Positions 20,667 through 22,625 of a stretch of 44,035 bases of DNA are shown here, one piece after another; positions within the stretch are counted from its first letter, which is position 1; the number at the start of each line of letters is the position of its first letter. The translations under genes were made by a program, and so were the position numbers. Source of the DNA: Bacteroidales bacterium (GTDB lineage: Bacteria; Bacteroidota; Bacteroidia; Bacteroidales; F082); the NCBI GenBank assembly GCA_017561025.1, contig JAFZDU010000120.1, positions 1 through 44,035 of the forward strand, read 5' to 3'. The notes under the pieces were generated by a model. That model did not search any database. It was not told the origin of the DNA and saw only the letters and a program-made list of their open reading frames with translations.

Positions 20667-21668
20667 TCAATTATTACCAAGCAACCTTATAAAATCTTCT
20701 ATTTTGAGTTTTGTGCTGCCAAACACATTAAACTCACCTTCCTCAAATACGAACTCACCATCTATATCTCTGTATCTGCCAGGAATTCCATCAATACACA
20801 TTTGATAATCTAAATATGAACCAAATGATGCCTGAAGTTCATTTATGACAAACCTACCGTCCTTTGTTTCAAAAATATCTACGTCCATGCACCTAAATCC
20901 ACCTTTAAGGCATAGCTCTCTAGTCATTTCCAATAAATGTTTAGGTGGCTTAACCCATCCCACCTTACCTGAGCCACTAGCAAATTCTCCTTCCAACAAT
21001 TTTTGATGGCCAAAATAACTATCTCCAATTTTAAGGATTCTCCATTCCCACAATACATCTTTTATAAAATCTTGAACTATAAAATAATCTTTCTGCGGAT
21101 TGTGTAAGTCAGGAATATTTAGAAATTTAACTTTTGTTTTATAATACAATCCTAATGATAAAAGTTTGAAGACTGATGTTTTAGGCAGACATTTTTTCGC
21201 CATGCGAATTGCATGCCTTTTATTTTTCACTATACGTACTTTTGATGCAGCTGCTCCAACATTGGATTTTGTAACTATCGGATATTCACATGAAGACAAA
21301 TACTTCAAAGCATTTTCTCTATTTGTAAAAACTTTTGTTTTAGCATGAGGATAATTATAAAGTTCCAACCAAGCTGCCATGTTTCTTTTGTTCTCATGAA
21401 TATACAAGCCATTAAAATCCGGATAAATAGGCAAGTTCATTATTTGAGACACAATGAAATATCTCTCATCCTGAATACTCTTAAGCTCTTGTGAAACACA
21501 GTTTGAAGGACAGAAAAAGCCGTCACAGTTTGCATTTCTAACATTGTCCAACCAATTTTCACTTATAATATCAACAACCTCATAATCTACGCCAAGGGCT
21601 TTACATGATTCAACTGCTTGTTCAACTACTTTTCCTCCTTGGAATGATGTGAATATACCAATCTTCAT
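20667..21668 (-). CDS. ATP-grasp ligase of the polysaccharide locus
   Basis: A 333-residue soluble ATP-grasp enzyme, which would activate a carboxylate as acyl-phosphate and join it to an amine. Visible features are an N-terminal preATP-like domain (1-95), the ATP-binding Lys134 in PIVTKSNVGAAASKVRIV, the adenine hinge FIVQDFI at 196-202, and the magnesium-binding end FRCMDVDIFETKDGRFVINE with D264 and E277 followed by a Gly-containing loop (LQASFGS). It is shorter than carbamoyl-phosphate or biotin carboxylases and lacks the D-Ala-D-Ala ligase pattern; RimK-like amino-acid ligases are nearer. The gene follows the opine dehydrogenase gene by 18 bases, so the two probably work together. Likely acceptor or donor groups are a uronic acid carboxyl and the amine of an opine or amino acid. 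No characterised homolog is recognised by me. Confidence 0.85.
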   Translation of the reverse strand: MKIGIFTSFQGGKVVEQAVESCKALGVDYEVVDIISENWLDNVRNANCDGFFCPSNCVSQELKSIQDERYFIVSQIMNLPIYPDFNGLYIHENKRNMAAWLELYNYPHAKTKVFTNRENALKYLSSCEYPIVTKSNVGAAASKVRIVKNKRHAIRMAKKCLPKTSVFKLLSLGLYYKTKVKFLNIPDLHNPQKDYFIVQDFIKDVLWEWRILKIGDSYFGHQKLLEGEFASGSGKVGWVKPPKHLLEMTRELCLKGGFRCMDVDIFETKDGRFVINELQASFGSYLDYQMCIDGIPGRYRDIDGEFVFEEGEFNVFGSTKLKIEDFIRLLGNN

Positions 21669-21686
21669 TTTCTATCAATTTGATTA

Positions 21687-22625
21687 TTACTGGTTAAAGA
21701 TTTCCACAAATTGTTTTACATCTTTTTTATAAACCCATTTTGAGAAAGACTTACTTATTTCATGGCTAGTAACCCTGTATAGCAAACTAGGCGCATTATT
21801 CACTTCATAAAAGAATAATCCGTCCTCTTCATACATTGGATCTGCAATGGATGTGTAGTGAGTGCCCTCTATTGCATTACCAGCGTCAGCAGCTGAATCT
21901 ATAAGCAAGCATCCTCTTTTCACACGTTTTAAATCATCCTTAGTGATTATATGCTTAACAGAACCATCAACTTCAATTCCATTTATGATAATGTCATACT
22001 CTCCTATAGAATCATAAAATTCTTGCATTGTTTTTCTATAGAACATACGAACATCAACATTATATTTCGCAATATAGTTATATGCGCCTTGTGACACACT
22101 GCCATTGGCTAATACGGCAACTTTTGTTTCCGAATTTGGCAACAATCCAAATGACAGCAATGCATGCTGGACACTTGCAATGCCGGCATAGAATGAATTT
22201 TTCCACACGAAATTCTTTTCTATAAATGGAATTGGTATATGTCTGTCTCCCAAATGAGCTGTAGGGAATATGTTATCCAAATCTATTATCTTCAGATTTT
22301 TCTTTTTCGCTACATTCTGATAAAAGGCAGTTCCTGAACCTGTAGGATGGGTCCATCCTATAATCATTTGTCCGTCTCTTAACAAGTCGTAATCTGTAGG
22401 CTGAATGAGCTTCAAGCAAAATATTATATCACAATTTTTAAAAATATTCTCTCTGCTATCTATTGTACAACCTTTTTCTTCATATTCACGGTCAGAAATA
22501 AACAGATTCGAACCGAAGCCTTTTTCAATTATTAGTTCATTTTCAAAATCATCTGTAATGTGTTGCGGCAATAATGCGACTCTTTTTTCACCCGGATATG
22601 TGGGTTTGATAAATCCTACTTTCAT
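21687..22625 (-). CDS. ceo: N5-(carboxyethyl)ornithine synthase-like opine dehydrogenase
   Basis: A 312-residue NAD(P)H-dependent reductase of the alanine dehydrogenase/transhydrogenase fold. It looks strongly like Lactococcus CEO synthase (313 residues), which reductively condenses pyruvate with the side-chain amine of ornithine or lysine. Shared blocks are FIKPTYPGEKRVALLP near 5-20, LKLIQPTDYDLLRDGQMIIGWTHP near 71-94 (His93), KNSFYAGIASVQHAL, RMFYRKTM, DIIINGIEV and AADAGNAIEGTHYTSI near 245-260. It is far shorter than alanine dehydrogenase (about 370). The nucleotide-binding loop reads ANGSVSQG where CEO synthase has GSGNVAQG, so the first Gly is replaced. It lies 3 bases past the flippase gene and 18 bases before the ATP-grasp gene. 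The product is probably an N-(1-carboxyethyl) amino acid used to decorate the polysaccharide; that use is inference. Confidence 0.87.
   Translation of the reverse strand: MKVGFIKPTYPGEKRVALLPQHITDDFENELIIEKGFGSNLFISDREYEEKGCTIDSRENIFKNCDIIFCLKLIQPTDYDLLRDGQMIIGWTHPTGSGTAFYQNVAKKKNLKIIDLDNIFPTAHLGDRHIPIPFIEKNFVWKNSFYAGIASVQHALLSFGLLPNSETKVAVLANGSVSQGAYNYIAKYNVDVRMFYRKTMQEFYDSIGEYDIIINGIEVDGSVKHIITKDDLKRVKRGCLLIDSAADAGNAIEGTHYTSIADPMYEEDGLFFYEVNNAPSLLYRVTSHEISKSFSKWVYKKDVKQFVEIFNQ

Follow-up and report, generated by a model that had tools for sequence, protein, structure and literature searches.

An opine-dehydrogenase-like gene paired with an ATP-grasp gene in a Bacteroidales polysaccharide operon: a candidate module for decorating surface sugars

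The window analyzed here is the whole 44,035-nucleotide stretch of contig JAFZDU010000120.1 from a Bacteroidales bacterium (assembly GCA_017561025.1). It contains an operon-like minus-strand run of polysaccharide genes, in which a gene for an opine-dehydrogenase-like protein and a gene for an ATP-grasp protein stand side by side between a flippase gene and a polymerase-like gene (Table 1). Both reading frames lie where an earlier note, made from the letters of the sequence, had placed them: the dehydrogenase gene comes 3 bases after the flippase gene, the ATP-grasp gene 18 bases later, and 74 bases separate the stop of the latter from the polymerase-like gene. As judged from sequence, there are two genes of recognizable families, tightly and recurrently linked, placed in glycan loci, and in some of these the dehydrogenase is exchanged for an unrelated opine dehydrogenase. 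The pair is probably an opine-decoration module of a Wzx/Wzy-type surface polysaccharide, in which the dehydrogenase would make an N-(1-carboxyethyl) amino acid and the ATP-grasp protein would attach it through an amide bond to a sugar, with a galacto-configured uronic acid as the likely acceptor.

The Two Proteins of the Pair

The dehydrogenase closely resembles the N(5)-(carboxyethyl)ornithine synthase (CEOS) of Lactococcus lactis (312 and 310 residues, respectively; 50% identity over 308 residues, E 3e-110). The earlier note had recognized this likeness from the length and from four peptide blocks (GEKRVALLP, LKLIQPTDY, GWTHP, and AADAGNAIEG), all of which are present. In the reaction catalyzed by CEOS, an ornithine or lysine side-chain amine is condensed with pyruvate. 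The five best plasmid matches, from Vagococcus, Lactococcus, and Enterococcus, have 49.7–53.4% identity and cover 99% of the window protein; four are annotated as N(5)-(carboxyethyl)ornithine synthase and one as "hypothetical," and the plasmid matches listed next are of the alanine dehydrogenase type, with identities of about 25% or less. On sequence grounds, the similarity to CEOS is too strong for chance. Both AlaDh_PNT_N and AlaDh_PNT_C exceed their Pfam cut-offs, and the CEOS profile matches alanine dehydrogenases and transhydrogenases among solved structures. The residues R15, K72, H93, and D247, whose counterparts in alanine dehydrogenase are catalytic, are kept in the L. lactis enzyme and conserved in all eight CEOS-type rows of the alignment. 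An identity as alanine dehydrogenase or transhydrogenase was rejected: the protein falls far under the NCBIfam cut-offs, and its 312 residues compare with about 345–377 in the matched alanine dehydrogenases.

The ATP-grasp protein does look intact, as had been claimed, since K134, D264, and E277 are invariant in the 11 aligned homologs. It nevertheless falls below the curated cut-offs of the known families (RimK, LysX, GARS, and CarB-like). Its best matches are weak ones to RimK, LysX, and GARS models: GARS_A leads in Pfam (24.4 bits, cut-off 27), and the NCBIfam matches reach at most 31 bits for cut-offs above 140. Among the 11 members at most three match any single Pfam model at E ≤ 0.01 (best 3e-5). 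The profile search of solved structures weakly matched LysX/RimK-type and GARS-type chains (E 8e-6 at best), and the ATP-grasp motif stretches align with the LysX/RimK-type chain 3vpd, the second stretch weakly (2.5 bits). An AlphaFold model built from nine sequences predicts a confident mixed alpha/beta structure (mean pLDDT 85.7). The protein thus shares with LysX/RimK-type ligases the ATP-grasp signature and a weak profile match to structures, but it differs from them in its distance from the NCBIfam cut-offs and in its genomic setting.

Recurrence of the Pair and Exchange of the Dehydrogenase

Homologs of the ATP-grasp protein were collected with ATP-grasp queries; only locus L038 was found with DNA spanning both genes of the pair. 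Tallies from the large genome samples are lower bounds, many genomes having had at most five candidates scored. Stretches were fetched for 12 of the 28 matched genomes in one search (the window's own excluded) and for all 17 in the search of the order sample. Most are 4.3 to about 18 kb long, so the absence of a partner is less certain in the short ones. Partner dehydrogenases were judged with self-built profiles of one to seven sequences each.

An Escherichia coli plasmid (NZ_AP027746.1, locus L021) has an ATP-grasp gene whose product is 44% identical to the window's and which overlaps a gene annotated as N(5)-(carboxyethyl)ornithine synthase; the pair is followed by a flippase, glycosyltransferases, EpsG, an epimerase, and a nucleotide-sugar dehydrogenase. 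Because the E. coli and window dehydrogenases are only 23% identical, the shared pairing is not the result of recent copying. With the E. coli pair as a DNA query, which would miss copies under about 65–70% DNA identity, matches came from 5 of 5426 E. coli genomes: two records (the plasmid and one in strain ES7) with at least 99% identity and three chromosomes with 71%. The two chromosomal copies opened (L038 and L039) are remnants riddled with insertion sequences (IS) that keep a flippase gene or part of one. When one genome per species was scanned with the ATP-grasp alignment, nine more loci emerged, six of which (L029–L033 and L036) carry a dehydrogenase of either superfamily. In three additional genomes from the window's order, which belong to a single genus (L105–L107), CEOS directly adjoins the ATP-grasp gene. 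The earlier note knew of no described module of this sort in Bacteroidales. The module is not confined to them: such a restriction is rejected by pairs in Cloacimonadota, E. coli, and Shewanella. The ATP-grasp family is rare, with one genome in 369 gammaproteobacteria, one in 158 of the Riemerella family sample, and one in 146 of the Shewanella family sample, each being the seed itself. Such rarity would fit serotype-like variable genes.

The tree of the ATP-grasp proteins has 39 rows; L039 (a copy of the L038 type), L074 (partial), L082–L084, L103, and L104 (repeats), and L085 (a weak match) were left out. The window falls in a clade of 16 rows (support 92/96, not starred), 12 of which have an AlaDH/PNT-type or octopine-type dehydrogenase. 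Eleven of these dehydrogenase genes adjoin the ATP-grasp gene directly, with gaps of −8 to +18 bases, and one lies one gene away. Without the window, which was given, and L038, found with the DNA of the pair, the count is 10 of 14. No such dehydrogenase was found in the fetched stretches of the 23 rows outside the clade, and equal pairing among distant ATP-grasp relatives is thereby rejected. The partner is CEOS in the window, L032 (with one gene between), L033 (adjacent), and L105–L107; a second CEOS-like subfamily (subfamily 2) in L021 and L038; another AlaDH/PNT protein in L031; and an octopine dehydrogenase in L029, in L030 from Riemerella columbina DSM 16469, and in L036 from Shewanella fidelis ATCC BAA-318. 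The AlaDH/CEOS-like partners come from Bacteroidota, Cloacimonadota, and E. coli, the octopine type from Bacteroidales, Riemerella, and Shewanella. Of 393 sampled genomes from the order, four have a CEOS scoring above 500 bits, each time adjoining the ATP-grasp gene. Among 100 relatives, a close CEOS occurs in two genomes, the window's own and its congener G004. As G004 is not among the order-sample matches, CEOS adjoins the ATP-grasp gene in four of five cases over both samples.

The octopine-type partners belong to a different superfamily. All three exceed the cut-off of PF02317 (octopine/nopaline dehydrogenase), and their profile matches the solved octopine dehydrogenase over positions 1–367 of 399 (E 8e-30). 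PF02317 is present in a single copy in the genomes of L029, Riemerella, and Shewanella, and that copy is the neighbor of the ATP-grasp gene. It occurs in none of 14 control genomes, and among ten genomes searched it was found once each in four, beside the ATP-grasp gene in three. The exchange is sharpest between the sister ATP-grasps of L029 and L032 (82% identity over 256 residues, support 100/99; the L032 protein is cut by the end of its 3.3-kb contig), whose partners come from different superfamilies; no CEOS was found in the L029 genome. Comparison of the window with L032 gives 85% identity for CEOS and 63% for the ATP-grasps, which suggests that the genes of the pair recombine independently. 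Chance pairing is rejected by rough arithmetic with assumed gene numbers, both for three single-copy octopine genes all lying beside the ATP-grasp gene (about 3e-10) and for at least 9 of 13 collapsed lineages (about 9e-17).

The earlier note's reading is supported in part. Its idea of a two-gene module for opine synthesis and ligation in this glycan locus has good support, since distant bacteria share the pairing and the dehydrogenase can be replaced by an unrelated opine dehydrogenase. The dehydrogenase also occurs without this ATP-grasp, on plasmids of lactic acid bacteria and in the glycan locus of a congener.

Proposed Function and Its Alternatives

By its family, the CEOS-like enzyme would form an N-(1-carboxyethyl) amino acid by reductive condensation of pyruvate with an ornithine or lysine side-chain amine. 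By its class and neighborhood, the ATP-grasp enzyme would then activate a carboxylate as an acyl phosphate and join the opine to the repeat unit through an amide. The most likely bond would link the opine's free α-amine to the C6 carboxyl of a galacto-configured uronic acid (GalNAcA or GalA) carried on UDP or on a lipid, before flipping.

The preference for a uronic acid comes from the neighboring genes. Among the eight intact loci with a wide context, five (the window, L029, L030, L036, and L021) have uronate dehydrogenase and C4-epimerase genes near the pair. These are TviB- and TviC-like in the window, L029, and L030. In L036 and the E. coli plasmid, the dehydrogenase is of the UDP-glucose dehydrogenase type (71% identity between the two loci) and is accompanied by an epimerase (74%). 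The two routes would give UDP-GalNAcA and UDP-GalA, both galacto-configured. An O-polysaccharide of S. fidelis, the species of L036, is reported to contain N-ε-(1-carboxyethyl)-lysine on galacturonic acid, although the literature consulted did not show it and it is not used as evidence here. No uronate or C4-epimerase genes were seen in the chromosomal remnants of E. coli (L038 and L039) or in the short stretches of L031–L033. No pair was seen outside a polysaccharide-type neighborhood or its remnant, the 3.3-kb contig of L032 being too short to tell. The chemistry itself has a precedent in Providencia rustigianii O14, which bears the amide of GalA with N-ε-[(S)-1-carboxyethyl]-L-lysine (PMC10609480).

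Several observations weigh against this interpretation. The boundary of the 16-row clade was chosen after the tree was seen, and the next larger clade (18 rows, support 90/93) adds two partnerless rows, for 12 of 18. The ligase clade does not always adjoin a dehydrogenase: four of its 16 rows (L034, L035, L037, and L108) have none of these types nearby, and their genomes have no PF02317 and weak or no AlaDH/PNT-type matches. Conversely, the congener G004 (locus L026) has a CEOS 79% identical to the window's and no ATP-grasp of this family in its genome (89% complete, 6% contamination). Subfamily-2-like genes occur in four further genomes without a strong ATP-grasp of this family: in two other congeners, one of them with a 33-bit match (G003 and G020), and in G1065 and G941, with no ATP-grasp match or a 67-bit one. 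Hence such dehydrogenases can do without this ligase in some glycan loci. In the alignment, all four subfamily-2 rows have P in place of K72, followed directly by a K, and L031 has C in place of D247, so the products of these partners are less certain than those of the CEOS type. Octopine dehydrogenases usually modify the α-amine and CEOS the side-chain amine; one ligase may therefore meet different opines. As to the acceptor, the uronic acid carboxyl put forward in the earlier note is made plausible by the five loci above, but L105–L107 have no uronate genes within the roughly 8–18 kb read around the pair; uronate-type dehydrogenases occur elsewhere in each of these genomes, but also in 13 of 14 control genomes. 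Finally, aminotransferase-like genes are present in the window, so an amino-sugar acceptor is possible, and a DegT-like gene (26%) lies near the pair of G1158 (L107).

These last genes bear on the most serious alternative, in which the same opine is made but its own carboxylate is activated by the ATP-grasp enzyme and joined to an amino sugar (a 4-amino-4,6-dideoxyhexose or similar). Such a structure is known, the alanopine-Qui4N of Providencia alcalifaciens O35 (PMC10609480). The window has two DegT aminotransferase-like genes together with RmlA and RmlB, and a DegT homolog (56%) and RmlAB homologs occur in the regions around the Riemerella pair. In addition, opines made at the α-amine keep a free primary amine only if the amino acid carries another one. 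These points and the DegT-like gene of G1158 keep the amino-sugar route a serious rival, though we think it considerably less probable than linkage to a uronic acid: no aminotransferase appears in the annotation or the list of open reading frames of the E. coli plasmid cluster, which does encode an epimerase and a nucleotide-sugar dehydrogenase, and near the Shewanella pair nothing matches the window's DegT proteins.

It is unlikely that ordinary amino acids are what the ATP-grasp enzyme links to sugars, with the dehydrogenase supplying or recycling the amino acid, as an alanine dehydrogenase might, and making no opine. The four clade members without a partner would fit this, as would the partner in L031, an AlaDH/PNT protein with 205.6 bits to the alaDH model (cut-off 391.85). 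The window-type partners, however, are CEOS-like at about 50% identity or more, those of L029, L030, and L036 are octopine dehydrogenases by Pfam and by profile, and we know of no alanine dehydrogenase role in that family. Least probable of all is that the opine stays soluble, as a metabolite or metallophore-like product, and that the pair hitch-hikes in polysaccharide islands: CEOS does lack an ATP-grasp partner on four lactic-acid-bacterial plasmids, and among the 15 plasmid matches of the octopine type that were listed, 8 also span an annotated gene of the cysteine synthase family, but where the context is readable the pair stands, in different phyla, among flippase, glycosyltransferase, and polymerase-like genes or their remnant (some gene names being assigned by eye).

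The pair shows both likenesses to and differences from the nearest known systems. The plasmid genes of the L. lactis CEOS type opened (four of five) lie outside glycan loci, in contrast to the window gene inside a polysaccharide operon. The octopine/nopaline dehydrogenases share the reaction class and take the place of CEOS beside homologous ATP-grasps, but they form another Pfam family and are not present in the window. The opine-bearing O-antigens (alaninolysine-GalA in P. rustigianii O14 and alanopine-Qui4N in P. alcalifaciens O35) have the chemistry proposed for the module. No gene making or attaching the opine is named for these O-antigens in the passages and listings covered by the search of the open-access literature. 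Nor did the titles and opening abstract lines of that literature describe such a gene pair; subscription literature lay outside the search, so a prior description may exist there. Opine-bearing glycans are already known, and the genetic module with its swappable dehydrogenase appears to be new. Relatives of the ATP-grasp protein in other phyla, standing beside two unrelated opine-forming dehydrogenase families, point at the level of sequence to a route of surface-sugar decoration in bacteria that has yet to be described. A recurrent cassette of two genes would let opine decorations be predicted from genomes, would offer an enzyme for opine amide chemistry, and would show unrelated dehydrogenases exchanged beside one ligase. 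It raises the testable question of whether one ATP-grasp enzyme accepts the opines of both dehydrogenase families.

More tentatively, and with the balance of probability somewhat against it, the ATP-grasp family may be the founding opine-glycan ligase of a serotype-switching cassette spread across phyla, one ligase taking opines from nonhomologous dehydrogenases. CEOS-type and octopine-type partners may then give two epimers, so that swapping one gene would alter the epitope without a change of ligase. Glycan papers (PMC10609480 among them) name carboxyethyl-lysine in both the (S)- and the (R)-form.

Other Features of the Window and of Related Loci

The window has the components of a Wzx/Wzy-dependent locus, namely a flippase, a polymerase-like protein, glycosyltransferases, and an initiating-transferase-like gene, the last under its model cut-off (Table 1). 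A phage search gave no match, leaving a phage origin unsupported.

Table 1. Genes of the window in and around the pair, with the model matches behind their names
Feature	Position	Strand	Model match
N5-(carboxyethyl)ornithine-synthase-like opine dehydrogenase, AlaDH/PNT superfamily, 312 aa	21687..22625	-	
ATP-grasp protein, proposed opine-glycan ligase, 333 aa	20667..21668	-	Below all Pfam and NCBIfam cut-offs
Flippase, Wzx-like	22629..23897	-	Polysacc_synt
Polymerase-like protein	19408..20592	-	Wzy_C, 32.7 bits, barely over cut-off (31.7)
Nucleotide-sugar dehydrogenase, TviB-like	24948..26264	-	TIGR03026 over cut-off; TviB model 554 bits, under cut-off (592)
TviC-like C4-epimerase	26230..27204	-	Best model TviC, 299 bits, under cut-off (760)
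UDP-glucose 6-dehydrogenase-like protein	29483..30721	-	TIGR03026 over cut-off
RmlB-like and RmlA-like genes	27274..29354	-	TIGR01181 and TIGR01207 over cut-off
Membrane acyltransferase	23916..24944	-	Acyl_transf_3
Three glycosyltransferases and a hexapeptide-repeat acyltransferase	15222..19393	-	Pfam
GNAT acetyltransferase	14606..15202	-	Pfam
Initiating sugar-phosphate transferase-like protein	14006..14599	-	Best TIGR03025, 238 bits, under cut-off (296)
Two DegT-type sugar aminotransferase-like proteins	11489..13973	-	Best models LegC family and PseC, both under cut-off

On the E. coli plasmid, typed IncFIB,IncY, the pair belongs to a compact capsule-like cluster (L021, 6074–26023) between two IS91-family transposase genes, with export, phosphatase, and tyrosine autokinase genes near the cluster. 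A short unannotated reading frame in it (12826–13338) looks by eye like the end of a sugar 4,6-dehydratase. In the chromosomal copies (L038 and L039, about 13950–21500), the glycan-cluster remnants are interrupted by IS elements, the pair itself is uninterrupted, and a tRNA-Phe gene lies some kilobases away.

Two congeners of the window's genome show the dehydrogenases in other company. In G004, CEOS (L026, 10238–11173) adjoins genes of the NeuB, DegT, CTP_transf_3, and Polysacc_synt_2 families, and an opine may be handled otherwise in this nonulosonate-type locus. In G003 (L027, 9211–18059), a subfamily-2 dehydrogenase shares its locus with a class-V aminotransferase, a pair of LicD genes, and a pair of genes of the cytidylyltransferase type. 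The O-polysaccharide section of PMC9630907 names N-[(R)-1-carboxyethyl]ethanolamine phosphate, and in view of that compound the G003 dehydrogenase might act on an ethanolamine-type amine. The ATP-grasp relatives of L070–L073 and L109–L119, outside the clade, have no opine-type dehydrogenases; some of them adjoin, by eye, asparagine-synthetase-like, glycosyltransferase, and polysaccharide-deacetylase-like genes and may belong to a second amide-forming system.

Two more genes of the window stand out. One (10273–11445) joins an N-terminal nucleotidyltransferase domain (TIGR00125 over cut-off) to a C-terminal part resembling GHMP sugar kinases, with a weak match to a fucokinase model. In the other (6775–8763), a PseB/FnlA-like 4,6-dehydratase domain is fused behind a region resembling the N-terminus of sugar-phosphate transferases, all matches being under cut-off.

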